From assembly GCF_011602485.2 (NCBI RefSeq), contig NZ_CP050022.2, forward strand, positions 2,624,001 through 2,688,000: a DNA stretch of 64,000 nucleotides, given 5' to 3'. Of the stretch, positions 15,386 to 31,345 are shown one piece after another. Each line of letters begins with the position of its first letter. Positions within the stretch are counted from its first letter, which is position 1. Origin of the DNA: Bradyrhizobium sp. 1(2017) (GTDB lineage: Bacteria > Pseudomonadota > Alphaproteobacteria > Rhizobiales > Xanthobacteraceae). The position numbers were made by a program, and so were the translations under genes. The notes beneath the pieces are model-generated. The model had not been told where the DNA came from and ran no database searches. It was given only the letters and a program-made list of their open reading frames with translations.

Positions 15386-16903
15386 CTACGCCACCCGCCA
15401 CTCCGGCACGCCATCCGCGGCCATCGCGATCTCGCCGAGCGAGTCCACCGGCGTGCGATCCATGTCGAGCAGATGCGCCAGCGTGGCGGCATCGCTCGCT
15501 GGAATTCGCGCCAATGTGCGCCGGTCGTCTTGGGTGCGGAGCATCACCACGCCGTGGTCGACATCGCCGCTGCGGCCGTAGAGCACGGTAAAGCTCTCGA
15601 CCTTGCCCTTGCCAGTCGCCTCCGTCGCAAACTCCGGCACCGCGCGCTTGCTGCGGTCGGCCTCGCCTTGCACGCTGGTCTCCTGTGCCAGCGCTTCGCG
15701 CGGCGGTGCCTTCGACACCACCAGCGCATGGTGCTTGGTGACGAAACCGCCCTGGCCGTAGAGCAGGCCGAGCCCGGCGCCATCGCGAACACGCCGCACC
15801 ATCGCGCAGGCTGCATGCGTCATGTAGGTGTTGAGCGGTGCGCCGAAGAAGGTGAGGCCGCCGGTCACGGTCGGCTGCACGTCGGCACCCAAGCCCAGCG
15901 TTCGCCGTGCCATCTTGGGCACGCACGGAAAACAGCTGTAGAGCTCGATGGCGTCGAACTTCTTGCCGTTGCCGCCGGCGAGATCCATCACGCTCCCGAG
16001 CACCGCGTTCTGTGGATGGCTCTCATAGAACTGGTCGCGCAAGAGATAATCCCGCGGCTCCTCCGCCGAGGCGCCGCCGAGCGGAAAGACCAGTCTGTCC
16101 TCGGCAATGCCGGCGGCACGCGCCTTGGCGAGGCTGGTCAGCAGCAGTGCGCCGCCCATGTTGACGCTGGGGTTGGCCACCATCAGCTTGTTGTAGGGCC
16201 ACGCGATCAGGCGGTTGTCAGCGGTCGGCGTCGTGATCTCATCAGAGGCGTAGCGACGCTTCAGCCAGGCATTAGGATTTTGCGCAGCGGCCTCGGAATA
16301 ACGCGACCAGAGCGTGCCTGATTCAGCCATCGCGTCGCGTGGCGTCTGGCCCCAATGCGCCGAGGAGGCGGCCTCGTAGAACGGATAGACGGTGACGGGG
16401 CGAAACACGCCGAGCTTGACCGCCAGCGGCTTCTGGAACGCCGCGCCGCGCTTGGGCTCTTCGACGTCGTGGGCGAACGGCGTCCATGGCAGCTTGACGC
16501 CCGCGCGCTCCGCCTTGGTCGCGGTCGACTGCGCCTCGGCGCCGCAGACCGCGGCCACGGTACATTCGCCGCGCGCGATGCGCTTTGCGGCCTCGTGGAT
16601 GTAGCGGATCGGGCTCTCGCCGCCGACCGGGCCGTAATAGCAATGCGCCGGCGAGATGCCGAGGCGTTGCGCCAGAAGCTGCTCCGGATCGCGATAGCGC
16701 CAGCTCAGGAAGTTGACGACGTCGAGCGATTGCACCTCGCCGAGCAGCCTTGCGCCGGCGTCAGCCTCGGCCCGCCGCAGCGCTTGTTCGAGCAGGTCAA
16801 GCGGCTCGAGGCCTTCGGTGATCTCTTTCGGGCGGTCGACGATCTCGCCGATGCCGACGATGACGGGGATGCGGTCTTCAGGGATGTTGGTCTTGTCGGT
16901 CAT
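15386..16903 (-). CDS. Thiolase-superfamily protein without the usual nucleophilic Cys
   Basis: 505 residues, resembling proteins annotated as acetyl-CoA acetyltransferase of the SCP-x-like thiolase superfamily. The N-terminal half has VIVGIGEIVDRP and GYARGEC-like helices. Where an SCP-x thiolase normally presents a GGxC motif with the acyl-accepting Cys, this protein reads YYGPVGGESPIRYIHEAA, so no Cys is available there. The C-terminal His region reads MTHAACAMVRRVRDG, followed by a domain of about 120 residues. Classical thiolysis is therefore doubtful; retro-Claisen/aldol or hydrolytic chemistry is conceivable. It may form an acyl-CoA catabolic unit with the nitronate monooxygenase on the same strand. 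Confidence 0.75.
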   Translation of the reverse strand: MTDKTNIPEDRIPVIVGIGEIVDRPKEITEGLEPLDLLEQALRRAEADAGARLLGEVQSLDVVNFLSWRYRDPEQLLAQRLGISPAHCYYGPVGGESPIRYIHEAAKRIARGECTVAAVCGAEAQSTATKAERAGVKLPWTPFAHDVEEPKRGAAFQKPLAVKLGVFRPVTVYPFYEAASSAHWGQTPRDAMAESGTLWSRYSEAAAQNPNAWLKRRYASDEITTPTADNRLIAWPYNKLMVANPSVNMGGALLLTSLAKARAAGIAEDRLVFPLGGASAEEPRDYLLRDQFYESHPQNAVLGSVMDLAGGNGKKFDAIELYSCFPCVPKMARRTLGLGADVQPTVTGGLTFFGAPLNTYMTHAACAMVRRVRDGAGLGLLYGQGGFVTKHHALVVSKAPPREALAQETSVQGEADRSKRAVPEFATEATGKGKVESFTVLYGRSGDVDHGVVMLRTQDDRRTLARIPASDAATLAHLLDMDRTPVDSLGEIAMAADGVPEWRVA

Positions 16904-18146: not shown

Positions 18147-18393
18147 GACTCTCTCCCGGCGGCTTCGCGTTCTCGTTGCCTTGGTGGGCGAAGCGAAACG
18201 ACGCTAGCCGATCGTCGCGCACGATGCCATGCCGGATTCGGCGGAGCATCTTGCGTGCAGGCGTCGCGCGATGCGCCAGCCATTCCGTCGCGCAAAATAA
18301 GCAGGGCAGGAGGCTTCGATAAGCCTCTTGCGCTTTTGCAGCGGTGAGCGAATGCTGGCTCACAACAACAGAATAACGAGGGAGCGCCAACCG
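18147..18393. promoter_or_regulatory. Divergent intergenic region between NMO and monooxygenase genes
   Basis: About 247 bases separate two divergent starts and must hold both promoters. No repeat copy and no convincing -35/-10 pair or operator palindrome was seen. GAGGGAGC before position 18394 is the monooxygenase ribosome-binding site. Confidence 0.4.
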
Positions 18394-20052
18394 ATGTCGT
18401 CAGCGCAATCGAGCCCCGCCCGCGCAAGCGAGGCCTACGACGTGGTCGTCGTCGGCGCGGGCTTTGCCGGCATGTACATGCTGCATCGTCTGCGCGGGCT
18501 CGGCTTCTCGGCGCGCGTCTTCGAGCAGGGCGGCGGCGTCGGCGGCACCTGGTACTGGAACCGCTATCCCGGGGCGCGCTGCGACGTCGAGAGCATGCAA
18601 TATTCCTACTCGTTCTCGGAAGAGCTCCAGCAGGAATGGGACTGGAGTGAACGCTACGCGCCGCAAGCAGAGATCCTGAAATACGCCAACCACGTCGCCG
18701 ACCGTTTCGACCTGCGCCGCGACATCCAGTTCGACACCCGCGTCGAGCGCGCCGTATTCGACGAGCGCGCAAAGCGCTGGTCGGTCACGATCTCCGGCGG
18801 CAGGACGGTTCAAGCGCAGTTCGTCGTGCTCGCCACCGGTTGCCTCTCGAACGCGCGCAAGCCCGACATCAAGGGTCTCGAGAACTTCGAAGGCCCTGTC
18901 TATCACACCGGCAACTGGCCACACGAGGACGTCGATTTCACGGGCTTGCGGGTCGGCCTGATCGGCACGGGATCGTCAGGCATCCAGTCGACGCCTGTCA
19001 TCGCCGAGCAGGCCAAACATCTCACCGTGTTTCAGCGCACGGCGAATTTCTCGATTCCCGCGCGCAATTCCGCGCTGACCGACGAGGAACGCGGCACGTT
19101 CCGCAAGAACTATCCGGAGATTCGCCGGTTTGCCCGTGAAGTCGCGCGCAACGGTATCTATGCCGAGCAGCCGGATCGCGGTGCGCTCGACGACAGTGAC
19201 GAGATCAGGACCGGCAAATACGCGGCGCGCTGGGAGCGGGGCGGGCTGACCTTCATGTATGTCTACAACAATCTCGGCCTCGAGCGATCCGCGAACGACA
19301 CCGCGGCGAACTTCGTGCGCGGCAAGATTGCCGAGATCGTGAAGGATCCGGAGACCGCGAAGCTGCTCCAGCCGAACAGCCATCCGATCGGCACCAAGCG
19401 GATCTGCATCGACACGGATTACTTCGCGACCTTCAACCGGCCGAACGTCTCGCTGGTGGACATCAAGGCCAACCCGATCGAGGAGATCACCGCGAACGCG
19501 GTTCGCGTCGCAGGCAAGGATCATGAGGTCGACGCACTGGTGATGGCGACGGGCTTCGACGCCATGACCGGATCGGTCGCGAAGATCGACATCAGGGGCC
19601 GGGGCGGTCAGACGCTGAATCAGAAATGGGCGGAAGGCCCGAAGACCTATCTGGGGCTGATGAGCGCGGGCTTTCCGAACCTCTTCATCATCACTGGCCC
19701 CGGCAGCCCGTCGGTGCTCTCGAACATGATCGTGTCGATCGAGCAGCACGTCGACTGGATTGCCGAAAGCCTCGTCCACATGCGCAAGCAGAGCCTCGTC
19801 ACGATGGAGGCGGAGAGGGAAGCCGAGGAGAAATGGGTCGCTCACGTCAACGAGGTCGCCCACGGCACGCTCTATCCGCAGGCCAATTCCTGGTATATGG
19901 GCGCCAACATCCCGGGCAAGCCGCGCATCTTCATGCCCTATATCGGCGGCATCGGCGTCTACCGGCGGATCTGCGACGATCTCGCGGCAAAGGGGTATGA
20001 CGGATTTGCGATGGCGCGGGCGGAGCAGGGGCTGACTGCGGCCGTGTTTTGA
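18394..20052 (+). CDS. FAD-dependent Baeyer-Villiger-type monooxygenase
   Basis: 552-residue flavoprotein like cyclohexanone/phenylacetone monooxygenases, which insert oxygen next to a ketone using NADPH, FAD and O2 to give esters or lactones. The FAD Rossmann motif GAGFAG is at 21-26, followed by the GGTWYWNRYPGARCD segment. The Baeyer-Villiger fingerprint FEGPVYHTGNW is at 165-175 (pattern FxGxxxHxxxW satisfied). The NADPH-site motif GTGSSG is at 191-196, and an ATGFDAMTG motif comes late in the chain. The start at 18394 is chosen over upstream in-frame ATGs for its ribosome-binding site and homology. Its place at the edge of an acyl-CoA region suggests the lactone is hydrolysed and degraded by beta-oxidation, although no lactonase/esterase lies adjacent. 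Confidence 0.9.
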   Translation: MSSAQSSPARASEAYDVVVVGAGFAGMYMLHRLRGLGFSARVFEQGGGVGGTWYWNRYPGARCDVESMQYSYSFSEELQQEWDWSERYAPQAEILKYANHVADRFDLRRDIQFDTRVERAVFDERAKRWSVTISGGRTVQAQFVVLATGCLSNARKPDIKGLENFEGPVYHTGNWPHEDVDFTGLRVGLIGTGSSGIQSTPVIAEQAKHLTVFQRTANFSIPARNSALTDEERGTFRKNYPEIRRFAREVARNGIYAEQPDRGALDDSDEIRTGKYAARWERGGLTFMYVYNNLGLERSANDTAANFVRGKIAEIVKDPETAKLLQPNSHPIGTKRICIDTDYFATFNRPNVSLVDIKANPIEEITANAVRVAGKDHEVDALVMATGFDAMTGSVAKIDIRGRGGQTLNQKWAEGPKTYLGLMSAGFPNLFIITGPGSPSVLSNMIVSIEQHVDWIAESLVHMRKQSLVTMEAEREAEEKWVAHVNEVAHGTLYPQANSWYMGANIPGKPRIFMPYIGGIGVYRRICDDLAAKGYDGFAMARAEQGLTAAVF

Positions 20053-20070: not shown

Positions 20071-20174
20071 GTCATTCCGGGGTGCCGCGGAGCGGCGAGC
20101 CCGGGATCCATTTCTCCGAGCATGCGTGACGCCTGATGGATGCCGGGCTCACCCTTCGGGTGCCCCGGAATGCC
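20071..20174. repeat. Intergenic palindromic element, family R2
   Basis: GTCATTCCGGGGTGCCGCGG on the left and CGGGTGCCCCGGAATGCCA on the right, with inner arms CCCGGGATCCAT / ATGGATGCCGGG. Other R2 copies are at 33407, 43958, 48001 and 61965. Confidence 0.8.
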
Positions 20175-20299
20175 ATGGGGAGAGAGGCGGCCATTCCAAA
20201 ACGGCGAGGGTCCTCGGCCATTCCTGCATTCCGGTGGCCTTGTCATTGGCCATTTGCGGGCTAATTAATGCAAGCGCATCTTTCCGCCGGAGCCACAGC

Positions 20300-21175
20300 A
20301 TGACCGACACCCCCGCCTACGTGCCGCCCAAAGTCTGGACCTGGGACAAGGAGAATGGCGGGCAGTTCGCCAACATCAACCGTCCCATTGCCGGTCCCAC
20401 CCACGACAAGGAGCTGCCGGTCGGCAAACACCCCTTCCAGCTCTATTCGCTGGCGACGCCGAACGGGGTGAAGGTCACGGTGATGCTGGAGGAGTTGCTG
20501 GCGCTCGGCCACAAGGGCGCCGAATATGATGCCTGGCTGATCAGGATCGGCAATGGCGACCAGTTCGGCAGCGGCTTTGTCGACATCAATCCGAATTCCA
20601 AGATTCCGGCGCTGATGGACCGCTCCGGTCCCGAGCCGATCCGGATCTTCGAGTCCGGCTCGATCCTGTTCTACCTCGCCGAAAAATTCGGCGCCTTCCT
20701 ACCGAAGGACATCAAGGCCCGCACTGAAGCGATGTCCTGGCTGTTCTGGCAGATGGGCAGCGCGCCCTATCTCGGCGGCGGCTTCGGCCATTTCTACGCC
20801 TATGCGCCGTTCAAGATCGAATACGCCATCGATCGCTTCGCGATGGAGGTCAAGCGCCAGCTCGACGTGCTCGACCGGCGGCTGGCCGACAACGAATATC
20901 TCGCAGGGAACGAGTACACCATCGCCGACATGGCGGTGTGGCCCTGGTACGGTGCGCTCGCCAAAGGACTTGTTTATGGCGCCGGCGAATTCCTCTCGGT
21001 GCAGGATTACAAGAACGTGCAGCGCTGGACCGACCAGATCGCCAAGCGTCCGGCCGTGAAGCGCGGCCGCATGGTCAATCGCGTCTCCGGCGATCCCGCC
21101 AGCCAGCTCCACGAGCGCCACGACGCCAGCGATTTCGAGACCAAGACGCAGGACAAGCTCGCGCCGGCGACGTAG
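20300..21175 (+). CDS. yghU: YghU-type glutathione S-transferase / disulfide reductase
   Basis: 291 residues, colinear with E. coli YghU from the first residues: PPKVWTWDKENGGQFANINR, then LPVGKHPFQLYSLATPNGVK, and the end LHERHDASDFETKTQDK. The N-terminal thioredoxin-like domain runs to about residue 130 (FESGSILFYLAEKFG at the GSH site) and the rest is helical. YghU-type (nu-class) GSTs bind two glutathiones and reduce disulfides. In this context it may have a housekeeping or detoxification role. The ATG at 20300 starts the recognisable homology; an open frame further upstream runs through repeat sequence and was discarded. Confidence 0.93.
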   Translation: MTDTPAYVPPKVWTWDKENGGQFANINRPIAGPTHDKELPVGKHPFQLYSLATPNGVKVTVMLEELLALGHKGAEYDAWLIRIGNGDQFGSGFVDINPNSKIPALMDRSGPEPIRIFESGSILFYLAEKFGAFLPKDIKARTEAMSWLFWQMGSAPYLGGGFGHFYAYAPFKIEYAIDRFAMEVKRQLDVLDRRLADNEYLAGNEYTIADMAVWPWYGALAKGLVYGAGEFLSVQDYKNVQRWTDQIAKRPAVKRGRMVNRVSGDPASQLHERHDASDFETKTQDKLAPAT

Positions 21176-21180
21176 GTACG

Positions 21181-21282
21181 TCGGGTGGATTGGTTGTCGG
21201 GCTGCGCGAAGCGCAGTCCGCTGGCGTAGTCCATCGCCTGTTCGCGCATTCGGCGGATTACGCTTCGCTAATCCGCCCTACG
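21181..21282. repeat. Intergenic palindromic element, family R9
   Basis: Contains the hairpin GGCGGATTA-CGCTTCGC-TAATCCGCC (21252-21277) and a second one GCTGCGCGAAGCGCAG near 21211. It occupies the whole gap between convergent genes and touches the flavin reductase stop. I saw no second copy of this type in the window. Confidence 0.6.
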
Positions 21283-21895
21283 GCGTCTTCACACCTTCGG
21301 CCGCGGGAAACACCACGCGGTCGTCGGTGCGGCAGTAGCGGTCGGCGAACATGCGGCCGATCGGGTGATAGCGGTCCATATGCACCCGCATCGCCTTGTC
21401 GTCCCAGAGCTCGTCTCGGATGTGGAAGTGGATGCCTTCGCCCATGATCAGGCGACGATCGTCGTTGACGTCGATCAGCTTCCAGAGCTTGCACTCCATC
21501 GCCCAGGGTGTTTCGGCCAGCCGCGGCACCGCGATCCTGGTCGAGGGCGCGAGCTTCAGGCCGAGATAGTCGGGCTCGCCGATGTCAGGCGGAAAATCGC
21601 CGCTGCTCTCGTGCATCGCCTTCGCCAGCGGTTCGTCGGCGATATTGACCACGAATTCGCCGGTACGCTGGATGTTGAGAAACGTGTCCTTGTCCTCTCC
21701 GTTCGGCTTGCGGTTTGCCGCGAACATGCAGAGCGGCGGATCCTCGCAAAACGCGTTGAAGAAGCTGAACGGCGCGGCGTTGACCACGCCTGTCGGTCCG
21801 AGCGTGGTCACCCACGCGATCGGCCGCGGCAGGATGAAGGAGGTCAGCACCTTGTAGCGCTCGCGTGGCGTGAGGTCGCTGGCGGCGTAGTCCAT
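21278..21895 (-). CDS. Flavin reductase family protein (FMN-binding)
   Basis: 205-residue FMN-binding split-barrel protein (Flavin_Reduct family). The landmark is LPRPIAWVTTLGPTGVVNAAPFSFFN at about 22-47, with NPSGEFVVN-like strands after it (here RTGEFVVNIAD). Members reduce free FMN/FAD for partner monooxygenases or act on other substrates. No two-component monooxygenase lies adjacent. It could supply a flavin-dependent enzyme elsewhere, or be an independent FMN oxidoreductase. Confidence 0.85.
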   Translation of the reverse strand: MDYAASDLTPRERYKVLTSFILPRPIAWVTTLGPTGVVNAAPFSFFNAFCEDPPLCMFAANRKPNGEDKDTFLNIQRTGEFVVNIADEPLAKAMHESSGDFPPDIGEPDYLGLKLAPSTRIAVPRLAETPWAMECKLWKLIDVNDDRRLIMGEGIHFHIRDELWDDKAMRVHMDRYHPIGRMFADRYCRTDDRVVFPAAEGVKTP

Positions 21896-21999: not shown

Positions 22000-23277
22000 T
22001 TACGCCATGCTCAGCTCGTGGCGGCCGACCACCATCCAGTGCACCTCGTCCGGACCGTCGGCGAAGCGGAGGTGGCGGACGTCCTGGTACATCTCGGCCA
22101 GCGGCGTCCAGTGCGAGATGCCGGTCGCGCCGTGCATCTGGATCGCCTGGTCGATGATCTTGCAGGCCCGCTCGGGCACCATGGCCTTAACCATGGAGAC
22201 CCAGACGCGGGCCTCCTTGTTGCCGAGCACGTCCATCGCCTTGGCGGCCTTCAGCACCATCAGCCGCATCGCCTCGATCTCGCAGCGCGCCTGCGCGATG
22301 ATCTGCATGTTGCCGCCGAGATGGGCGATCTTCTTGCCGAAGGCCTCGCGGGTGAGGCCGCGCTGCACCATCAGGTCGAGCGCCTTCTCGGCCTTGCCGA
22401 TGGTGCGCATGCAGTGATGGATACGGCCGGGGCCGAGGCGGAGCTGCGAGATCTCGAAGCCGCGGCCTTCGCCGAGCAGCATGTTCTCCTTCGGCACGCG
22501 GACATTGTTAAAGCGCATGTGCATGTGGCCGCGCGGCGCATGATCCTGGCCGAACACGTACATGGGCCCGAGCACCTCGACGCCGGGCGTGTCGCGCGGC
22601 ACCAGGATTTGCGACTGCTGCTTGCTCGGCGCGGCATCCGGATTGGTCTTCACCATGACGATGAGGATCTTGCAGCGGGGATCGCCGAGACCCGAGATGT
22701 AGTACTTCTCGCCGTTGATGACCCATTCGTCGCCGACGAGCTTGGCCGTGGTCGAGATGTTCTTGGCGTCGGAGGAGGCGACGTTCGGCTCGGTCATGAC
22801 ATAGGCCGAACGGATCTCGCCGTTGAGCAGCGGCTTCAGCCACTTCTCCTTCTGCTCCTTGGTGCCGACGCGCTCCAGCACCTCCATGTTGCCGGTGTCG
22901 GGCGCCGAGCAGTTCATGCTCTCCGATGCCAGCGGGCTCTTGCCGAGCTCGGAGGCGATATAGGCGTAGTCGAGATTCTTCAGGCCCTGGCCGGTCTCGT
23001 CGTCGGGCAGGAAAAAGTTCCAGAGGCCTTCCTTCTTCGCCTTGTTCTTGGCGACCTCCAGCACCTCGAGCTGCTTCGGCGTGAAGCTCCAGCGGTCTTC
23101 CTTGCCTTCGCCGGCCTTGGCGAACTCGATCGACATCGGCTCGACGGTGTCGCGGATGAACTTCCTGACGTGGTCGTAGAGCGGCCGGACCTGGTCCGAC
23201 ATCCGGAGGTCGTTGAGCTCGTCGCCAGGATTGAGAGTGTAGTTGGTGGTGCGGGGAATGTAGGTGTGTTTTGTCAT
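22000..23277 (-). CDS. Acyl-CoA dehydrogenase, ACAD10/11-like
   Basis: 425-residue FAD acyl-CoA dehydrogenase. It has an N-terminal helical domain, a middle beta domain with AYVMTEPNVASSDAKNI and WVINGEKYYISGLG, and a C-terminal four-helix domain with IQMHGATGISHWTPLAEMY. The terminal block RHLRFADGPDEVH is the signature I associate with the ACAD10/ACAD11/FadE2 clade, whose members work with an APH-like kinase on 4-hydroxyacyl-CoAs. Such a kinase is encoded 2.6 kb away at 25860. The start is supported by GGGAGGA. The alternative is ordinary alpha,beta-dehydrogenation of a branched acyl-CoA. Confidence 0.92.
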   Translation of the reverse strand: MTKHTYIPRTTNYTLNPGDELNDLRMSDQVRPLYDHVRKFIRDTVEPMSIEFAKAGEGKEDRWSFTPKQLEVLEVAKNKAKKEGLWNFFLPDDETGQGLKNLDYAYIASELGKSPLASESMNCSAPDTGNMEVLERVGTKEQKEKWLKPLLNGEIRSAYVMTEPNVASSDAKNISTTAKLVGDEWVINGEKYYISGLGDPRCKILIVMVKTNPDAAPSKQQSQILVPRDTPGVEVLGPMYVFGQDHAPRGHMHMRFNNVRVPKENMLLGEGRGFEISQLRLGPGRIHHCMRTIGKAEKALDLMVQRGLTREAFGKKIAHLGGNMQIIAQARCEIEAMRLMVLKAAKAMDVLGNKEARVWVSMVKAMVPERACKIIDQAIQMHGATGISHWTPLAEMYQDVRHLRFADGPDEVHWMVVGRHELSMA

Positions 23278-23440
23278 TGTTCCTCCCGTGTCGCTGAGAT
23301 CGTGCTGGCGGCGAGAATAGTCGCAGTGCCTCGAAAGTGCGAGCGCGCATTTTCATGCGCAGGCATGCCATGCGATGGAATTCGCGAGAACGTTTGAAAT
23401 GTTGTTTGAATGGGGTGAAGGGAGGCGGTCACCTCGCTCG
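23278..23440. other. Leader region of the acyl-CoA dehydrogenase gene, no gene seen
   Basis: Together with the following R5 repeat this makes a gap of about 313 bases. The first part is less GC-rich and is the probable promoter region of the minus-strand dehydrogenase. No convincing promoter boxes or coding sequence were recognised. Confidence 0.35.
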
Positions 23441-23576
23441 GTGTCGTCCCGGACAAGCGAAGCGCAGATCCGGCACCCACAGCCACAGGGAGCAGTTTGG
23501 CGAAGACTCGAAGTTACGAGTTTGCGGTACAATGCCGCCTGTGGTTATGGGTCCCGGCTTTCGCCGGGACGACACC
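23441..23576. repeat. Intergenic palindromic element, family R5
   Basis: Outer arms GTGTCGTCCCGG and CCGGGACGACACC, inner block TTTGGCGAAGACTCGAAG, then TATGGGTCCCGGCTTTCGCC. It shares the TTGGCGAAGACT core with the copy at 31423 and the outer arms with the copy at 29625. Confidence 0.75.
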
Positions 23577-23590
23577 GAGTATGTTGTCGG

Positions 23591-23971
23591 CTAGTTCGGC
23601 AGCCGATGCATCGCGCAGATCTTGTTGCCGTCGAGATCCCGGAGGTAAGCCAGATACAGCTTGCCGCCCGGGCCCTGGCGGACGCCCGGCGGATCCTCAA
23701 TCGATTTTGCACCGGCCGCGATGCCGGCTGCGTGCCATTGCTCGACCTGCTCCGGCGAGTTGCATGCGAAACCGATTGTGGCGCCATTCGCGCAGGTCGC
23801 CGCTTCGCCGTTGATCGGCTTCGACACCGAGAACACGCCGGTCTTGGTTATGTAGAAAATGCGATGCCCGTCGACCATCGCTGGCCGCACCTCGAGCGTG
23901 CCGAGCAGCTTGTCGTAGAACCCCTTGGCCTTGTCGAGGTCGTTGGTGCCGATCATGACGTGTGAGAACAT
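23591..23971 (-). CDS. VOC (glyoxalase/bleomycin-resistance) family protein
   Basis: 126 residues with two beta-alpha-beta-beta-beta units of the vicinal oxygen chelate fold. The start FSHVMIGTNDLDKAKGFYDKL is typical, with a metal-site candidate His in the first strand, and the second unit ends LYLAYLRDLDGNKICAMH. The function of this subfamily is not determined. Neighbours are acyl-CoA catabolic genes, so isomerase or epimerase activity on a CoA or oxygenated intermediate is possible but unproved. Confidence 0.85.
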   Translation of the reverse strand: MFSHVMIGTNDLDKAKGFYDKLLGTLEVRPAMVDGHRIFYITKTGVFSVSKPINGEAATCANGATIGFACNSPEQVEQWHAAGIAAGAKSIEDPPGVRQGPGGKLYLAYLRDLDGNKICAMHRLPN

Positions 23972-23993
23972 TTGCGCATTCCCTCAGAGTTTG

Positions 23994-24073
23994 TGGCCCG
24001 GATGGAGCGGAGCGAAATCCGGGTCTGTTTTGCTTTGGCCGTCCCGGATCGCGCTTCGCTCCGTCCGGGTTAC
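23994..24073. repeat. Intergenic palindromic element, diverged family R3
   Basis: Arms GTGGCCCGGATGGAGCGGAG and GCGCTTCGCTCCGTCCGGGTTAC. The pattern is that of the R3 copies at 4785 and 35110, with substitutions. Confidence 0.65.
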
Positions 24074-24081
24074 TCGAAAGA

Positions 24082-24861
24082 TCAGAACGCTGTATAGCCG
24101 CCGTCGATCACGAACGTATCGGCAGTGTGATACGACGATGCCTTGCTCATCAGGTACACCGCGATGCCGCCGAAATCGGATGCTTCGCCGAAGCGTCGCA
24201 TCGGGATGCGCGGCATCACGTTGGCGACGAATTTGTCGTTGGCCATGATCCCGGCCGTCATGTCGCTCTTGATCCAGCCGGGCAGGATCGCGTTTGCGGT
24301 GACGCCGTGGCGTGCCAGCTCGACGCCGAGCGCGCGCACCAGCGCGTTGATGGCGGCCTTGGTCGCGGCATAATGCTCGTTGCGCGCGGTACCGAAGATC
24401 GAGGCGAGGCTCGAGGTCGCAACCAGCCGGCCGAACGGGTCGCCGGCATTGGCCCGCTCGGTCATGTGCTTCGCGGCCGCCTGGAACGCGTGGAACACGC
24501 CGTCGAGATTGGTGGCGAACATCGTGCGCCATTCCTCTTCGGTGCGCTCGATGAAGGCGCGCCGGCCGCCGCCGCCGATGCCTGCATTGGCGAAGCAGCC
24601 ATCGACCCGACCGAAGGAATCGAGCGTCGCCTTCATCGCGGCATTGACCGATGCCGGATCGGTGACGTCGCAGACGCGGGTCTCGACCTTGCCTGACAGC
24701 CCCGCCATGCTCGCGGCGGCAGCCTTGTTCTTTTCAGGATTGCGACCCCAGATCGAGACGTTGCAGCCCTGGGCGGCCAGCGCCTGCGCGATGCCGAGTC
24801 CGATGCCGCCATTGCCGCCGGTGATCACGGCGACGCGGCCGGAGAGGTCGAAAAGGTTCAT
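24082..24861 (-). CDS. SDR family oxidoreductase
   Basis: 259-residue classical short-chain dehydrogenase. TGGNGGIGLG cofactor motif at 14-23, NAG at about 92-94, catalytic Ser in VATSSLASIFG, and Tyr-Lys in HYAATKAA. The C terminus ends VIDGGYTAF. Probable reaction: NAD(P)-dependent interconversion of a hydroxyl and a keto group on an acyl-CoA or free acid. It is divergent from the crotonase-kinase-DUF6285 operon. In levulinate catabolism an SDR (LvaD) reduces the 4-keto group before phosphorylation, and this gene is the nearest candidate for that step (inference). Confidence 0.9.
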   Translation of the reverse strand: MNLFDLSGRVAVITGGNGGIGLGIAQALAAQGCNVSIWGRNPEKNKAAAASMAGLSGKVETRVCDVTDPASVNAAMKATLDSFGRVDGCFANAGIGGGGRRAFIERTEEEWRTMFATNLDGVFHAFQAAAKHMTERANAGDPFGRLVATSSLASIFGTARNEHYAATKAAINALVRALGVELARHGVTANAILPGWIKSDMTAGIMANDKFVANVMPRIPMRRFGEASDFGGIAVYLMSKASSYHTADTFVIDGGYTAF

Positions 24862-25074
24862 GGCGCGTTTCCTGTTCTTGGCCAGTTCTCGGCAAGTCTT
24901 TCAGTCGCCCTGGCAAGTCTTCCCTGGCATGCCGCGCATCAGCCGCTGCGCGCAAGATTGCTCGCCATGCCCTGATCACCATGGACAAGACCGCGCCAAA
25001 AATCAAATATGCGCCCCGGCAAAACAAATTCCGGTCTGCGAAACTGACGCAGGCCGGCAACTGACGAGGAAACC
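24862..25074. promoter_or_regulatory. Divergent region between SDR and crotonase-kinase operon
   Basis: 213 bases between divergent starts. The stretch before 25075 is AT-richer (CGCCAAAAATCAAATATGCG, then GGCAAAACAAATTCCGG) and probably holds the operon promoter. No repeat copy and no perfect palindrome was found. Confidence 0.35.
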
Positions 25075-25863
25075 ATGCAGTTCAAACATGTCACGCTCGA
25101 ATTCGATGGCTCGGTCGCCATCCTCAAGCTCGACCATCAGGAGGTGATGAACGCGGTCTCCGTGGACATGCTGGGCGGACTTGCCGACGCGCTCGATGCG
25201 ATCGAGGAGAAGAAGGACGAGGTGCGCTGCGTCGTCTTGACCGGCGCGGGGCGGGCATTCTGCACCGGCGCGAACCTCCAGGGTCGGAACAACCAGTCGA
25301 AGAAGACCAAGGCCGGCCTGACGCTGGAGACCGGCTTTCATCCGTTCCTGCGCCGCATCCGCAACCTGCATTGCCCGATCGTGACCGCGGTCAACGGACC
25401 GGCGGCCGGCGCCGGCATGAGCTTCGCGCTGCTCGGCGACATGATCCTCTGCGCGCGCTCCTCCTATTTCCTGCAGGCCTTCCGCCGGATCGGCCTCGTG
25501 CCGGATTGCGGTTCGACCTGGCTGCTGCCGCGCCTGGTCGGCCGGGCGCGCTCGATCGAATTGTCGCTGATGGGCGAGCGGCTGCCGGCCGAGAAGGCGC
25601 TGGAATGGGGCCTCGTTAACCGCGTCTACGATGACGGCGCGCTGATGGAGGAGGCGATGAAGCTCGCGCGCGATCTCGCCAGCGGCCCGACGGTCGCGCT
25701 GTCGCTGATCCGCAAGCTCTATTGGGACAGCCCGGAAAACTCCTTCGAAGATCAACTCAACCTCGAATTCCAGTGCCAGCTCCGCGCCGGTGACACCCAG
25801 GATTTTCGCGAGGGCGTCGGCGCGTTCCTGGAGAAGCGGCCCGCGCAGTTCAAAGGCAAATGA
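25075..25863 (+). CDS. Enoyl-CoA hydratase/isomerase (PaaG-like crotonase)
   Basis: 262-residue crotonase. Oxyanion-hole segments are GRAFCTGANLQ (about 61-71) and GPAAGAGMSFALLGD (about 108-122). The active-site helix reads FRRIGLVPDCGSTWLLPRLV, close to the PaaG type, which has a catalytic Asp in VPDSGGTWLLPR where hydratases carry Glu. An isomerase role (double-bond shift or oxepin-type isomerisation) is therefore as likely as hydration. It is first in an operon with the kinase, sharing an ATGA overlap. Confidence 0.9.
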   Translation: MQFKHVTLEFDGSVAILKLDHQEVMNAVSVDMLGGLADALDAIEEKKDEVRCVVLTGAGRAFCTGANLQGRNNQSKKTKAGLTLETGFHPFLRRIRNLHCPIVTAVNGPAAGAGMSFALLGDMILCARSSYFLQAFRRIGLVPDCGSTWLLPRLVGRARSIELSLMGERLPAEKALEWGLVNRVYDDGALMEEAMKLARDLASGPTVALSLIRKLYWDSPENSFEDQLNLEFQCQLRAGDTQDFREGVGAFLEKRPAQFKGK

Positions 25864-26846
25864 TCGAGGCGGAGCTCTCGCGCAGCGTCGCGCGCTGGCA
25901 CCCGGGCGCGAGCGGCGTCACAGGCGCCGCAAAGCTGTCCGGCGGCGCCAGTCAGGAAACCTGGCGTTTCGACATCGTGCATCCCGATGGGCCGATCGGC
26001 GCGATCCTGCGCCGCTCGCCGAAGGGCTATGGCGCCGCGCCGACGCGCGCGGCGGGTCTTGCCGCTGAAGCGCAGCTGATGCAGCTCGCTTATGAAGCCG
26101 GCGTGCCGTCGCCGCGCGTGATGCATGTGCTCGTGCCGGAGGACGATCTCGGCACCGGCTTCATCATGCAGCGGGTGGAAGGCGAGACCATCGCGCGCAA
26201 GATCCTGCGCGATGAGGAGTACGCAACGGCGCGGCCGCATCTGGCACGGCAGATCGGCGGCGTGCTCGCCGGGCTGCACAGGCTGCCCCAGGACAAATTG
26301 CCCGAGCTGCGCAGCAGGTCGGCGACACAGGAGATCGCCGAGTTCGAGCGTGACTATCACAGCCTCAACTGGCCCAAGCCCGTGTTCGAGCTGGCGCTGC
26401 GCTGGCTCTGTGACAACGACCCCGGCCCCTCGGCCGAGACGACGCTGGTGCATGGCGACTTCCGCAACGGCAACCTCATCATCGGCGCCGACGGCGTCCG
26501 GGCGGTGCTGGACTGGGAGCTCGCCCATCTCGGCGATCCCATGGAGGATCTTGGTTGGGTCTGCGTCAATTCCTGGCGCTTCGGCGAGATCGACAAGCCG
26601 GTCGGCGGCTTTGGCTCGCGTGAGGAGCTGTTCGCGGGCTATGAAGCTGCCGGCCGCAAGGTCGATCCGGCGCGCGTGAAATTCTGGGAGGTGATGGGCA
26701 CGCTGCGCTGGGGCATCATGTGTGGCGGCATGATGCAGCGCTTTCGTGAGGGGCCGGACCATTCCATGGAGCGCGCCATGATCGGCCGCCGCGCCTCCGA
26801 GACCGAGATCGATCTGTTGCGGCTCTTGGCGCCGCGCGGGAGCTGA
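25860..26846 (+). CDS. APH-family phosphotransferase (candidate 4-hydroxyacyl-CoA kinase, LvaA-like)
   Basis: 328-residue protein-kinase-fold phosphotransferase of the APH family. The catalytic loop HGDFRNGN is at 198-205 (D200 base, N205 metal ligand) and the metal-binding D218 is in LDWELAHLGDP. The N-lobe has KLSGGASQETWRFDI. The subfamily sits beside acyl-CoA dehydrogenases in bacteria and is fused to one in animal ACAD10/ACAD11. In Pseudomonas putida the relative LvaA phosphorylates 4-hydroxyvaleryl-CoA with the small partner LvaB. Here the kinase is followed after 3 bases by a DUF6285 gene and preceded by a crotonase overlap, matching that layout. An aminoglycoside-resistance role is unlikely in this setting. 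The substrate is inferred, not shown. Confidence 0.88.
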   Translation: MIEAELSRSVARWHPGASGVTGAAKLSGGASQETWRFDIVHPDGPIGAILRRSPKGYGAAPTRAAGLAAEAQLMQLAYEAGVPSPRVMHVLVPEDDLGTGFIMQRVEGETIARKILRDEEYATARPHLARQIGGVLAGLHRLPQDKLPELRSRSATQEIAEFERDYHSLNWPKPVFELALRWLCDNDPGPSAETTLVHGDFRNGNLIIGADGVRAVLDWELAHLGDPMEDLGWVCVNSWRFGEIDKPVGGFGSREELFAGYEAAGRKVDPARVKFWEVMGTLRWGIMCGGMMQRFREGPDHSMERAMIGRRASETEIDLLRLLAPRGS

Positions 26847-26849
26847 CCC

Positions 26850-27227
26850 ATGCAGGACGAACCCACCCCGATCGAGCTGACCAAATCGGTCGCCGATTTT
26901 CTCCGCAACGACATCACGCCGCTGATCTCCGGCCACCAGGCCTTCAAGCTCCGCGTCGCCATCAACATCCTCGACCTTGTGACGCGGCAGCTGACGCAGG
27001 AGGAGGGGAGTGATGCCGCGGAAGTAGAGCGGCTGCGCGCGCTGCTCGGCACGGACGGCTCGGTGACAGAGCTCAACCGCGCCCTTGCCGATCGCATCGC
27101 CCAAGGCGAGATCGACCTTGCGACGCCGGGCCTCGCCGAGCATCTCTGGGCGACCACGATGGACAAGCTCGCGGTCGATCAGCCGAACTATGCGTCGTAC
27201 AAGCGCGAGCTGAGGCGGGAAGGGTAG
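26850..27227 (+). CDS. DUF6285 protein (candidate LvaB-like kinase partner)
   Basis: Small, mostly helical 125-residue protein of the DUF6285 type. It opens PIELTKSVADFLRNDITPLI, has AFKLRVAINILDLVTRQL, and ends with the conserved LWATTMDKLAVDQPNYASY. No catalytic motif, signal peptide or membrane segment is visible. It lies 3 bases behind the APH kinase, the constant position of this family beside such kinases. In levulinate catabolism a small protein (LvaB) is needed together with the kinase. I propose the same partner role, but family identity between LvaB and DUF6285 should be confirmed by profile search. Confidence 0.85.
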   Translation: MQDEPTPIELTKSVADFLRNDITPLISGHQAFKLRVAINILDLVTRQLTQEEGSDAAEVERLRALLGTDGSVTELNRALADRIAQGEIDLATPGLAEHLWATTMDKLAVDQPNYASYKRELRREG

Positions 27228-27335: not shown

Positions 27336-28115
27336 CTACTTCCCCACCCATTTCGGCGGCCGCTTCTCCGAAAACGCCTTCGGGCCCTCGATATAGTCCT
27401 GCGAGGCCACCATTGCCTTCACCGCCGGGTACTCTCGCTGCTCCTCGATCGCCTGTTCCAGCGACACGCCAAGCCCCTTCTGGATCGCCTGCTTCGAGGC
27501 CCGGATCGACATCGGCGAGTTCTTGGTGATCATCTCCGCCCAGCGCAGTGCGGCCGACAGCGCCTCGCCCTGCGGTACCACCTCGTTGACGAAACCAAGC
27601 TCGAGGCCTTCCTTGGCGCTGACATGCCGCGCGGTGAGGATCATGCCCATGGCGCGCTTGAGGCCGATCTGCCGGGGCAGCCGGTGCAGGCCGCCGGCGA
27701 GTGCGGCCAGCCCGACGCGCGGCTCGGGCAGGGCGAAGGTCGCGTTCTCCGAGGCGATGATGAGGTCGCAGGCCAGCGCGATCTCGAAGCCGCCGCCCAT
27801 CGCGACGCCGTTCACGGCGGCAATGATCGGCTTGTCGCAGTCGAAGCGCGAAGTCAGGCCGGCAAAGCCGCCCTTGTCCCAGCCGCGCTTGCCGCCTGCT
27901 GCCTGCCACTTCAGATCGTTGCCGGCGCAGAACGCCTTGTCGCCGCTGCCGGTGACGATCGCGATCCACTGCTCGGGATCGGCGGAGAAATCGTCGAACA
28001 CCTTTTGCAGCTCGAAATGCGCGTCGGTATGCAGCGCGTTGTAGACCTCGGGCCGCGACAACGTCACGATCGTGATCGGTCCCTTGCGTTCCACCTTCGA
28101 AAATTTCAGCTCCAT
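27336..28115 (-). CDS. Enoyl-CoA hydratase/isomerase family protein
   Basis: 259-residue crotonase. Oxyanion-hole motifs are DKAFCAGNDLKW (about 58-69) and NGVAMGGGFEIALACDL (about 101-117), and the active-site helix is FALPEPRVGLAALAGGLHRL, with the first catalytic Glu position occupied (PEP). The C terminus EKRPPKWVGK is typical. I chose the ATG at 28115 because GGGAG lies 6 bases upstream and homology starts there; the frame stays open to 28220. It is a minus-strand single gene between two plus-strand operons. Confidence 0.9.
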   Translation of the reverse strand: MELKFSKVERKGPITIVTLSRPEVYNALHTDAHFELQKVFDDFSADPEQWIAIVTGSGDKAFCAGNDLKWQAAGGKRGWDKGGFAGLTSRFDCDKPIIAAVNGVAMGGGFEIALACDLIIASENATFALPEPRVGLAALAGGLHRLPRQIGLKRAMGMILTARHVSAKEGLELGFVNEVVPQGEALSAALRWAEMITKNSPMSIRASKQAIQKGLGVSLEQAIEEQREYPAVKAMVASQDYIEGPKAFSEKRPPKWVGK

Positions 28116-28231
28116 CACGCGCTCCCGCATTTTCTCGTCGAGGAATATTGACGGCATAGTAGCGCGCGTGCGCGGTTCAACACCATCGAATTGCGCGGAC
28201 GCGCCTTGCGCGTTCGGCACGCCCGCCTCGC

Positions 28232-28327: not shown

Positions 28328-29602
28328 TTGGATTTCTCATTGCCTGCCGATCTCGTCGCCTATCTCGCAGAGCTCGATCGTTTCATCGCGCGCGAGATCA
28401 AGCCGCTCGAAGAGGCCGACGACAACATCCGCTTCTTCGATCATCGCCGCGAATGGGCGCGCACCGATTTCGAGAATGGCGGCCTGCCGCGCCATGAATG
28501 GGAAGCGCTGCTTCGCAAGGCGAAGGATCTCGCCGATGCCGCGGGCCATCTCCGCTTTCCGGTCCCGAGGCAATATGGCGGCAAGGACGGCTCCAATCTC
28601 TGGATGGCGGTGATCCGCGAGCATTTTGCCGCCAAGGGCCTGGGCCTGCACAACGACCTCCAGAACGAGCATTCCATCGTCGGTAATTTTCCCGTCGTCA
28701 CCATGCTCGACCGCTACGGCCGCGACGACCAGAAGGCGATGATCGATGGCTCGATCAAGGGCAAGTACCGTATCACCTTCGGCCTGACCGAGCCGCATCA
28801 CGGCTCGGACGCAACTCACATGGAGACGCGCGCGGTGCCGGCCACCCGCGACAACGTCAAGGGCTGGATCATCAACGGCGAGAAGATGTGGACGACCGGC
28901 ATGCACGTCGCCACGCATTGCGCGCTGTTCGCGCGCACCAGCGGCAATGACGGCGATGCCCGCGGCATCACCTGCTTCCTGGTTCCGGCCAAGAGCCACG
29001 GCGTCAAGGTCGAAGAGTACATGTGGACCTTCAACATGCCGACCGATCACCCCCGCGTGAGCTTCACCGACGTGTTCGTGCCAGAGGATGCGCTGTTCGG
29101 CGAGGTCGGCCGCGGCCTGTCGCTGGCGCAATGCTTCGTGCATCAGAACCGCATCCGCCAAGCCGCGAGCTCGCTCGGCGCGGCCGTCTACTGCATCAAC
29201 GAGAGCGTCAAATACGCGCGCGAGCGAAAGCCGTTCGGCAGGGCGCTGGCCGAGAACCAGGCGATCCAGTTCCCGCTCGTGGAGCTCGCCACCCAAGCCG
29301 AGATGCTGCGTCTCCTGATCCGCAAGACCGCCTGGGAGATGGACCAGCTCACCGAGGAGCAGATCGAGCGCACGCTCTCCGATCGCGTCTCCATGTGCAA
29401 CTACTGGGCAAACCGCCTGTGCTGCGAATCCGCCGATCGCGCGATGCAGGTCCATGGCGGCATGGGCTACTCACGCCACAAGCCATTCGAGCACATCTAC
29501 CGCCACCACCGCCGTTACCGGATTACGGAAGGCAGCGAGGAGATCCAGATGCGCAAGGTGGCGGGGTTCCTGTTCGGCTACATGGGGCCGGGGAAGCATT
29601 AG
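28328..29602 (+). CDS. Acyl-CoA dehydrogenase
   Basis: 424-residue FAD-dependent acyl-CoA dehydrogenase. Motifs: FGLTEPHHGSDATHMETRA (substrate/FAD loop), GWIINGEKMWTTG, ARERKPFGRALAENQAIQ, MQVHGGMGYSRHKPFEHIYR, and the C-terminal RRYRITEGSEEIQMRKVAG with Glu at the usual catalytic-base region. It begins at a TTG preceded by GGGAGA at proper spacing; no ATG fits as well. It is distinct from the dehydrogenase at 22000, lacking the ADGPDEVH motif. It likely introduces a double bond into an acyl-CoA within this region's pathway. Confidence 0.92.
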   Translation: MDFSLPADLVAYLAELDRFIAREIKPLEEADDNIRFFDHRREWARTDFENGGLPRHEWEALLRKAKDLADAAGHLRFPVPRQYGGKDGSNLWMAVIREHFAAKGLGLHNDLQNEHSIVGNFPVVTMLDRYGRDDQKAMIDGSIKGKYRITFGLTEPHHGSDATHMETRAVPATRDNVKGWIINGEKMWTTGMHVATHCALFARTSGNDGDARGITCFLVPAKSHGVKVEEYMWTFNMPTDHPRVSFTDVFVPEDALFGEVGRGLSLAQCFVHQNRIRQAASSLGAAVYCINESVKYARERKPFGRALAENQAIQFPLVELATQAEMLRLLIRKTAWEMDQLTEEQIERTLSDRVSMCNYWANRLCCESADRAMQVHGGMGYSRHKPFEHIYRHHRRYRITEGSEEIQMRKVAGFLFGYMGPGKH

Positions 29603-29767: not shown

Positions 29768-31345
29768 CTAATTCACACGTCGATCCTTCCCCGCCCAATA
29801 CGGCTCGCGCAATTGCCGCCGCAAGATCTTGCCTGACGGATTTCTCGGCAGCGCCGGCAAGAACTCCACGCTCTTCGGCGTCTTGTAGCCGGCGATGCGC
29901 TCGCGGGTGAAGTTGATGATGTCGCTGGCGGTCGCTTCCTTGCCCGGCTTCATGACCACGACGGCCTTCACCGCCTCGCCCCATTTGTCGTCGGGCACGC
30001 CGATCACGGCGGCTTCCGCGACATCGGGATGATCGCACAGCGCGCTCTCGACCTCGGCGGGATAGATGTTCTCGCCGCCGGAGATGATCATGTCCTTGAT
30101 GCGGTCGTGGATGTAGAGGTAGCCGTCCTCGTCCATGTAGCCCGCATCGCCGGTGCGCAGCCAGCCGTCGCCGCGCAGCGTCGCGGCAGTCGCCTCGGGC
30201 AGGTTCCAGTAGCCCGCCATGTTGGAGCCCGACCGCGTCGCGATCTCGCCGACTTCACGCGGCGGCAGCGGCTTGCCCTCGACGTCCAGGATCGCAATCT
30301 CGACGCCGGGCAGCGCCTTGCCGGCCGAGCGCATCCGCTCCAACCCCTCGACATGGTCTTCCGGCGGCAGCGCGACGATGGTGCCGGTCGTCTCGGTCAT
30401 GCCGTACATCTGCACGAAGCCGCATTTGAAGATTTCGATGCACTCCTTCAGCAGCGCCGCCGGAATAGGCGAGGCGCCGTACAGCATGTATTTGAGCCGC
30501 GAGAAATCCACCGTCTTCGCGCGCGGCTGCCGCACCACGAACTGCATTGCCGCCGGCACCATGAACAGCTTTGTGATGCCCGACTGCTCGAAGAAGTCGA
30601 GCACCCTGGTCGGATCGAACTCGCGCGCGATGACGCCGCGGGCGCCGTGATAGAGCCCCATCACGCCCCAGCCGGAGCCGCCGATGTGGAAGATCGGCAT
30701 CGCGACCAGCGAGACGTCGTCGGTCGACCACCGGTTCCATTCCGGCTTGTCCTCGGCATTGCCCGTTTGCACCAGGTTGAGGAAGTTCGCGTGGCTCAGC
30801 ATCGCGCCCTTCGGCTTGCCTGTCGTGCCCGACGTGTAGAGCTGGATCGCGATGTCCCTGCTGTCGATCGGCACTCTGGGATCATCACCGCTTTGCGCCT
30901 CGCGCCACGCGGTAAAGTCTTGCCATTCCGGCGCACCGCCCTCGGTGGTGATGATTGTGCGCACGCCGGGTAGCTTGTCCTTGATCTGGTGGACGAGCGT
31001 CATGAACTCCGGCCCGACGAACAGCACCGGCGCCTTGCAATCTTCGACGATGAAGGCGACCTCGGGCCCCGCGAGCCGCCAGTTTACGGGCGCCATCACC
31101 ACGCCGGCCTTCATCGCGCCCATCAGCAGCTCGAAATAGAGATCGCTGTTCTTGCCGAGATAGGCGATGCGGTCGCCCTTGTTCACGCCCATCGCGATCA
31201 GCGCATTGGCGACCTTGTTCGTCTTGACGTCGAATTCGGCAAAGCTGGTGAGGCGCCCCTCGAACTCGTAGGCAACGGCATGACCGCGGCTCGTCGCGCG
31301 TTCGCGCACCATGTCGGCGAGATTCGCCAGTGGCTGTGTGGACAT
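29768..31345 (-). CDS. Fatty/organic acid CoA ligase (AMP-forming)
   Basis: 525-residue adenylate-forming acyl-CoA synthetase. P-loop LYTSGTTGKPKGAM is at about 169-182, MYGMTETTGTIV is the A5 motif, TGDAGYMDEDGYLYIHDR is A7, and the C-terminal catalytic Lys lies in NPSGKILRRQLREPYW. It activates a free acid with ATP and CoA, and could initiate this region's pathway (an LvaE-like role is possible). The substrate cannot be deduced. It has its own divergent neighbours and R5 repeats on both sides. Confidence 0.92.
   Translation of the reverse strand: MSTQPLANLADMVRERATSRGHAVAYEFEGRLTSFAEFDVKTNKVANALIAMGVNKGDRIAYLGKNSDLYFELLMGAMKAGVVMAPVNWRLAGPEVAFIVEDCKAPVLFVGPEFMTLVHQIKDKLPGVRTIITTEGGAPEWQDFTAWREAQSGDDPRVPIDSRDIAIQLYTSGTTGKPKGAMLSHANFLNLVQTGNAEDKPEWNRWSTDDVSLVAMPIFHIGGSGWGVMGLYHGARGVIAREFDPTRVLDFFEQSGITKLFMVPAAMQFVVRQPRAKTVDFSRLKYMLYGASPIPAALLKECIEIFKCGFVQMYGMTETTGTIVALPPEDHVEGLERMRSAGKALPGVEIAILDVEGKPLPPREVGEIATRSGSNMAGYWNLPEATAATLRGDGWLRTGDAGYMDEDGYLYIHDRIKDMIISGGENIYPAEVESALCDHPDVAEAAVIGVPDDKWGEAVKAVVVMKPGKEATASDIINFTRERIAGYKTPKSVEFLPALPRNPSGKILRRQLREPYWAGKDRRVN

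Follow-up and report, generated by a model that had tools for sequence, protein, structure and literature searches.

A 64,000-nucleotide stretch of the 7.86-Mb genome of Bradyrhizobium sp. 1(2017) (G000:C1:2624001-2688000, hereafter the window) encodes a kinase of the APH fold followed by a protein of the DUF6285 family, a pair that resembles LvaA-LvaB of the Pseudomonas lva operon, a kinase acting on 4-hydroxyvaleryl-CoA. How 4-hydroxyacyl-CoAs are phosphorylated has recently been worked out, both for mammals and for an operon of Pseudomonas. Homology, intact catalytic residues and co-inheritance define a small gene set around the pair (the genes starting at 29768, 25860, 26850, 28328 and 22000). 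In the genomes sampled the kinase is accompanied by a type of dehydrogenase for which we found no role described in such a pathway, and this suggests a branch of fatty-acid breakdown not yet characterised. We put at about one in two the probability that the locus encodes an LvaAB-type hydroxyacyl-CoA kinase pathway inside a set of β-oxidation genes. On the best reading, its core would be an acyl-CoA ligase, the kinase, the DUF6285 protein and an acyl-CoA dehydrogenase of a distinct family, here called ACAD-B, with an enzyme of the ACAD10/11 type as phosphate eliminator where one is present. The genes concerned are as follows (SDR, short-chain dehydrogenase/reductase).

22000 to 23277, minus strand: acyl-CoA dehydrogenase of the ACAD10/11/LvaC type, with R280, H288, C289, M290, R291 and D407 and the block RFADGPDEVH
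23591 to 23971, minus strand: VOC/glyoxalase-fold protein, between the 22000 dehydrogenase and the SDR
24082 to 24861, minus strand: SDR oxidoreductase, divergent from the crotonase at 25075, 30% identity to LvaD
25075 to 25863, plus strand: crotonase (NCBIfam PRK05981, 487 bits, exceeding the cut-off), overlapping the kinase start by 4 bases
25860 to 26846, plus strand: APH-fold kinase, LvaA-like (PF01636, 126 bits), with HGDFRNGN and LDWE intact
26850 to 27227, plus strand: DUF6285 protein, LvaB family (PF19802, 116 bits, cut-off 28), 3 bases after the kinase
27336 to 28220, minus strand: second crotonase, between the DUF6285 gene and ACAD-B
28328 to 29602, plus strand: ACAD-B, an acyl-CoA dehydrogenase of a distinct family
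29768 to 31345, minus strand: acyl-CoA ligase (PRK06187 subfamily, 664 bits, exceeding the cut-off)
33559 to 35103, plus strand: second acyl-CoA ligase (PRK12406 subfamily, 934 bits)

The initial annotation of the window had described the kinase with its motifs, the DUF6285 gene behind it, the overlapping crotonase, the divergent SDR and the 22000 dehydrogenase, and all five genes are intact as described (Pfam, NCBIfam and a check of the open reading frames of the window). The VOC protein and ACAD-B were absent from its gene list. An open reading frame at 28337-29455 on the minus strand, initially read as a gene, has no family match and lies opposite ACAD-B.

The yardstick for the known system was a complete lva operon annotated on a Pseudomonas plasmid record (regulator, kinase, a gene named lvaB, acyl-CoA dehydrogenase, SDR, synthetase, DUF485 protein and symporter). 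In both loci an APH kinase with intact motifs precedes a DUF6285 gene, and over 312 residues the window kinase shares 34% identity with LvaA (150 bits). The yardstick LvaB is itself a PF19802 protein (85.3 bits, cut-off 28.1), and in a profile comparison the window-type DUF6285 family and the LvaB family align end to end over 116 columns (probability 98.9, E 1.9e-17), bearing out the proposed kinship of the two; by phmmer the match between LvaB and the window protein is weak (16 bits, E 4.5e-4). When the window was searched by phmmer with all eight lva-operon proteins, LvaA gave 152 bits, LvaC 180, LvaD 102 and LvaE 208, and the counterparts of LvaA to LvaE all lie inside 9.4 kb. LvaR, LvaF and LvaG had no match in the window at E 1e-3, in line with the earlier statement that no lva-type transporter is present. 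The arrangement that marks an lva operon (LvaR, a DUF485 protein and an ActP-type symporter with LvaABCDE in one order) is not that of the window locus, in which the gene order and the partner dehydrogenase differ.

A tree of 62 kinases with a midpoint root, which includes 29 of the 30 kinases from the ACAD-B genomes described below (that of G301 was left out), separates four ACAD11-type kinases from 58 DUF6285-type kinases at 100/100. The LvaA clade comprises 12 rows (94/99) and the side that holds the window kinase 45 rows (83/82) with a core of 40 (92/95); the Thermus kinase has no placement. The tree that the initial annotation had called for thus sets the kinase on the LvaA side, apart from the ACAD11 type, and not inside the LvaA clade itself, so that by sequence it is LvaA-like yet on a branch of its own. 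Its scores to the kinase domain of ACAD11 (39 bits), to 3DXP (49 bits) and to the ACAD11-type kinase of its own genome (46 bits) are low, and a stretch of the ACAD11-type kinases, RQIxRWTKQY, is missing by eye from the alignment of the DUF6285-linked ones. The suggested kinship with the kinase domain of ACAD10/ACAD11 is therefore not borne out, and the description of the locus as a separate-subunit version does not set it apart, LvaA and LvaC being separate proteins themselves. On sequence grounds the locus appears to be a variant of the LvaAB kind, neither an lva operon nor a split ACAD10/11.

The accessible text of PMC6692424 describes LvaA and LvaB as acting jointly on 4-hydroxyvaleryl-CoA, both being required, and an interaction of LvaB with LvaA by pull-down. 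By homology, the window kinase with its DUF6285 protein should phosphorylate a hydroxyacyl-CoA, the DUF6285 protein being presumably the second subunit. In sphingomonads the two form a single protein (Pfam finds both domains in L190, the one tested), and 14 long kinase open reading frames align through both the kinase and the DUF6285 parts. Such fusion is expected of subunits and therefore supports one working unit; if this is true, the DUF6285 family would be explained as a kinase subunit.

The closest solved match of the 22000 dehydrogenase is mouse ACAD11 (389 bits), in which, according to the part of PMC12440821 that is accessible, the special residues are R626, H634, R637 and the catalytic D753. 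R280, H288-C289-M290-R291 and D407 of the window enzyme align with R626, H634-R637 and D753, in an alignment where the structures 8V3U and 8V3V do not agree at this Asp and with an offset of one assumed in the chain numbering. These residues do not vary among the 10 rows of our alignment of the type (A1), rows that were selected as this type. Arginine, HCMR block and aspartate base are all present, as in ACAD10, ACAD11 and LvaC, and the enzyme thus carries what a phosphate-eliminating dehydrogenase needs. Phosphate elimination by LvaC is described in the accessible parts of PMC6692424 and PMC11342911, the latter reporting the same two-step reaction; the known reaction of the HCMR type, as far as the accessible parts of PMC12440821 and PMC11342911 go, is on 4-phosphoacyl-CoA. 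Unlike the situation in ACAD10/ACAD11, the window kinase is DUF6285-linked and not of the ACAD11 type, and its gene is 2.6 kb from that of the dehydrogenase, on the opposite strand.

The initial annotation had taken the 22000 enzyme as the kinase's dehydrogenase partner; the one most closely tied to the kinase is ACAD-B. This family has an N-terminal motif, DDNxRFFDHRRE...GLPxxEWE, and FVHxNRIRQAASS in place of the HCMR block. Mean column identity among 11 members is 74%, and D31, D32, N33, R35, F36, F37, D38, H39, R40, R41, E42, R45 and T46 are invariant, within a conserved and partly inserted stretch of residues 31-59. F270, Q278 and S281 replace R626, H634 and R637 of the ACAD11 type, Arg631 is retained as R275, and the base position is occupied by Glu401, so that the combination of arginine, HCMR block and aspartate base seen in the 22000 enzyme is missing here. 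The nearest solved sequence is CarC, the caffeyl-CoA reductase (6FAH, 156 bits), and the scores of NCBIfam models all fall well short of their cut-offs. Like CarC and the short- and medium-chain dehydrogenases, ACAD-B keeps the acyl-CoA dehydrogenase domains and the glutamate base; it differs from them in its N-terminal stretch, its polar pocket positions and its tie to the kinase. There are at least 8000 relatives in the protein search, and the 120 matches listed are unnamed or bear only generic dehydrogenase names. A literature search, with most subscription papers beyond its reach, yielded no described role in a kinase-type pathway for ACAD-B or for the 29768 ligase, and no mention of DUF6285.

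The kinase, ACAD-B and PF19802 were searched for in the same 398 proteobacterial genomes, with a few first-look candidates scored per genome, and absences are those of this search. ACAD-B (E 1e-100) was found in 30 genomes, every one of which has a window-type kinase, and PF19802 in 39. The window kinase (E 1e-20) matches in 43 genomes: the 30 with ACAD-B, 10 whose DUF6285 kinase falls in the LvaA clade and 3 with weaker matches and no PF19802 match. None of the 10 LvaA-clade genomes has ACAD-B. By genus, the tie of kinase and ACAD-B is 17/17 against 0/195. The two genes lie at most 3 kb apart in 20 of the 30 genomes and are unlinked in the others (G075, G139, G147, G220, G256, G285, G309, G323, G349 and G351); in one third of the kinase genomes the LvaAB-like kinase is tied to this dehydrogenase family and to the ligase discussed below irrespective of gene order. 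The kinase of G139 belongs to the window side only through the weaker 83/82 branch, and G301 has no PF19802 match at the threshold and a kinase reading frame with, by eye, a DUF6285-like tail. As a positive control, an HCMR dehydrogenase adjoins the LvaA-clade kinase in 8/10 genomes (7 by script, G016 by coordinates).

The HCMR type as a whole (profile A1, E 1e-130) matches in 137/398 genomes, among them 30/30 kinase genomes; it is therefore not specific and cannot separate the readings. In samples of these matches the HxMR motif was present in 3/3 at 438-458 bits and missing in 3/4 at 347-399 bits. Close relatives of the 22000 enzyme (at least 665 bits and 71% identity; the next match has 532 bits and 59%) were sought in the 137 HCMR-positive genomes, the other 261 being outside this query, and occur in 20, of which 18 are kinase genomes. 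Outside the family of the window's genome they are found in 8/19 kinase genomes against 2/368 without the kinase; counted by genus, the association holds in 7/8 (P about 4e-8). The phosphate-elimination residues and this co-inheritance both speak for the initial annotation's reading of the 22000 enzyme. An HCMR dehydrogenase lies near the kinase in 2/19 genomes outside the window's family within 16 kb (0.34 expected, P 0.045) and in 3/19 within 33 kb (0.70 expected, P 0.03), a weak test with distance limits picked after seeing the data.

The ligase at 29768 (E 1e-140) is present in 29/30 kinase genomes and in 2/50 HCMR-positive controls; of the 29, 10 have it linked to the kinase and 19 do not. 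Its identities outside the family are 47-66%, and orthology is taken from score, not from a tree. The initial annotation had suggested either this ligase or that at 33559 as the activating enzyme, and its guess of 29768 gains support. The crotonase at 25075 was rejected as a co-inherited core member: at E 1e-60 it is in 26/30 kinase genomes and 15/50 controls and so not specific to the former, and matches of at least 380 bits number 12/80.

A scan of named genomes with the ACAD-B alignment found at least 582 relatives, of which the best 80 were kept, mainly from Bradyrhizobium and sphingomonads, the nearest being Bradyrhizobium loci. A window-type kinase is in view in 66 of these 80, within 700 bases of ACAD-B in 25 (one divergent) and at 0.8-2 kb in 41; six of the 14 loci with no kinase in view are contigs shorter than 10 kb. 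In 20/66 the kinase reading frame is 439-584 amino acids long with no separate DUF6285 gene, and is taken as a fusion. An HCMR dehydrogenase is in view in 26/80, all Bradyrhizobium, and the crotonase at 27336 is retained in most loci of the Bradyrhizobium family examined. The window's own genome has a second kinase-DUF6285-ACAD-B set at 6804876-6807526 (L042), with the kinase 52% and ACAD-B 77% identical to those of the window. A plasmid cluster of Sulfitobacter pontiacus holds a window-type kinase, DUF6285, ACAD-B and an LvaC-like HCMR dehydrogenase together.

The association extends beyond Proteobacteria. A search of plasmid records with ACAD-B at E 1e-60 gave 12 records, five of them from S. 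pontiacus, each with DUF6285 adjoining. On a Nocardia farcinica plasmid, DUF6285, a window-type kinase (39%) and ACAD-B are consecutive, and in 4/4 annotated haloarchaeal records ACAD-B, a protein of 157-159 amino acids and a diverged APH kinase stand side by side; in a fifth haloarchaeon a related kinase is about 6 kb from ACAD-B. The idea that the 157-159-residue protein is a DUF6285 counterpart found no backing: Pfam gave no hit, and the profile comparisons gave probabilities of 4.7 and 0.3, which are not matches. One Rhodobacteraceae record with ACAD-B showed no kinase within the 21 kb viewed.

For the favoured pathway we infer each reaction, the substrate and, by analogy, a hydroxyl at position 4. 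The ligase at 29768 would form the CoA ester, the two-subunit kinase (25860 with DUF6285 26850) would phosphorylate the hydroxyl of the acyl chain, the 22000 dehydrogenase would remove the phosphate to give an enoyl-CoA and the crotonases would hydrate it. The SDR at 24082, cast earlier as keto reductase, could fill that role. ACAD-B would carry out a further kinase-associated step, most likely the α,β-dehydrogenation of a polar, hydroxylated or phosphorylated acyl-CoA, because the glutamate is kept at the place of the base and the phosphate-binding residues are missing. The chemistry proposed in the initial annotation is plausible in these terms.

Several observations weigh against this pathway. 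Dehydrogenases of the 22000 type stand near the kinase only in Bradyrhizobium and not in every Bradyrhizobium locus (the 26/80 above), 12/30 kinase genomes have no close relative of the 22000 enzyme, and the HCMR profile matches somewhere in every kinase genome but in 137/398 genomes overall. No HCMR dehydrogenase was seen in the seven non-Sulfitobacter stretches, Nocardia and haloarchaea among them. The window's own genome has a pair of an ACAD11-type kinase (409 bits to 3DXP, 249 to ACAD11) and an HCMR dehydrogenase at 5056315-5058599, and the 22000 enzyme could work with this kinase instead. A relative of the latter dehydrogenase in another Sulfitobacter (73%) stands with a ligase, a hydratase, two SDRs and, at the end of the row, a VOC protein (66 bits), 13 kb from an ACAD11-type kinase. 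In the kinase tree, the branch to the window side has no more than moderate support (83/82; core 92/95), LvaB and the window DUF6285 protein give no alignment in BLASTP, and kinship among the genomes inflates all the co-inheritance figures, the counts not being independent. The alternatives below overlap with the favoured pathway and with one another, and the odds of the readings do not sum to one.

It is possible, if rather unlikely, that the kinase targets another hydroxyl position, or a branched, cyclic or terpenoid acyl-CoA, and that simple 4-hydroxy acids are not substrates. This would be compatible with the other readings. In its favour, the window-type kinases branch away from LvaA, the related DUF6285 kinases of Cupriavidus, Variovorax and G379 are accompanied by two other dehydrogenases but by none of the HCMR type, and haloarchaeal neighbours of ACAD-B are annotated as hydantoinase/oxoprolinase, acetone carboxylase subunit gamma and acetoacetate decarboxylase. 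Set against it is the co-inheritance with an HCMR-type dehydrogenase, given the 4-phosphoacyl-CoA reaction ascribed to that type above. Where Cupriavidus and Variovorax records carry DUF6285 kinases, ACAD-B was not found, in a search that excluded their chromosomes, and the tie of kinase to ACAD-B therefore does not cover that branch.

That ACAD-B itself consumes the phosphorylated product, with the 22000 enzyme serving the ACAD11-type kinase at 5.056 Mb, is unlikely, and is suggested by its constant company with a kinase: the window-type one in all 30 ACAD-B genomes of the 398 and within 700 bases in 25/66 named loci, and an adjoining kinase in Nocardia and the 4/4 annotated haloarchaeal records, with no HCMR dehydrogenase in view. 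The invariant Arg and His of its N-terminal stretch and the polar N274, Q278 and S281 near the pocket positions would also suit such a role. ACAD-B matches none of R626, H634 and R637, however, and keeps a glutamate where ordinary dehydrogenases have their base, and it is with the kinase that close relatives of the 22000 dehydrogenase, too, are co-inherited. The Nocardia and haloarchaeal results led us to rate ACAD-B as a phosphate handler higher and the favoured pathway lower. Taken further, ACAD-B would be a second, independently evolved family that consumes phosphorylated hydroxyacyl-CoAs, common to Proteobacteria, Nocardia and haloarchaea, with at least two acyl-phosphate routes in existence, a proposal that we regard as quite doubtful.

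Distinctly improbable is a closed lva-like route of kinase, DUF6285 protein and 22000 dehydrogenase for a gamma-keto or gamma-hydroxy acid, with ACAD-B as an ordinary β-oxidation companion. The LvaA, B, C, D and E matches inside 9.4 kb would fit it, as would the co-inheritance of the 22000 type and the 29768 ligase with the kinase, but ACAD-B is tied closer to the kinase than the 22000 type (30/30 against 18/30) and still accompanies a kinase in other phyla, whereas dehydrogenases of the 22000 type are distant from it or unlinked once Bradyrhizobium is left aside. An aminoglycoside, macrolide or choline kinase would share the common APH Pfam domain, and is extremely improbable: scores to the APH and Mph models are 19-34 bits, where the cut-offs are 205-650 (the best APH(3') model 34 against 205), the 12 families matched at E 1e-3 include no model of a choline kinase, and LvaA scores 150 bits.

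Further genes of note lie before position 22000.

18328-20052, plus strand: Baeyer-Villiger-type flavin monooxygenase, with the fingerprint FEGPVYHTGNWP, a single occurrence, between Rossmann motifs
20126-21175: glutathione S-transferase, between the monooxygenase and the 22000 dehydrogenase
21278-21895: flavin reductase, also between the monooxygenase and the 22000 dehydrogenase

The monooxygenase stretch matches FxGxxxHxxxWP, which we take to be the fingerprint of Baeyer-Villiger monooxygenases. A ketone-to-lactone step by this enzyme would make sense upstream of a hydroxyacyl-CoA kinase. Upstream of the monooxygenase, the reading frame 15386-16903 on the minus strand matches a thiolase-like protein type 1 additional C-terminal domain.

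Eight loci of an Erythrobacteraceae type (L189, L190, L192, L194-L197 and L201; eight among the 37 loci L165-L201 listed) have genes for a glutathione S-transferase and an aldehyde dehydrogenase preceding the fused kinase-DUF6285 gene and ACAD-B, and in 7/8 an SBF-type transporter is next; the same glutathione S-transferase and aldehyde dehydrogenase occur at L091. If ACAD-B did consume the phosphorylated product, such a cluster would fit the disposal of 4-hydroxyalkenals from lipid peroxidation. The haloarchaeal ACAD-B clusters L216, L217 and L218 adjoin the genes annotated as hydantoinase/oxoprolinase, with the acetone carboxylase gamma subunit annotation in L216 and an acetoacetate decarboxylase family gene in L216 and L218; these neighbours hint at ketone breakdown. 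DUF6285-kinase clusters of a further kind (L047, L048 and L073, from Cupriavidus metallidurans CH34, Variovorax and G379) contain a ligase close to the 33559 ligase of the window (548-590 bits), and in each of them one of the two dehydrogenases ends in IYGGTSEVQ, with no acidic residue at the usual base position. In Thermus thermophilus pTT27 (L046) and in L202, a histidine phosphatase gene adjoins the kinase or its DUF6285 gene, and the like is reported for Pseudomonas citronellolis.

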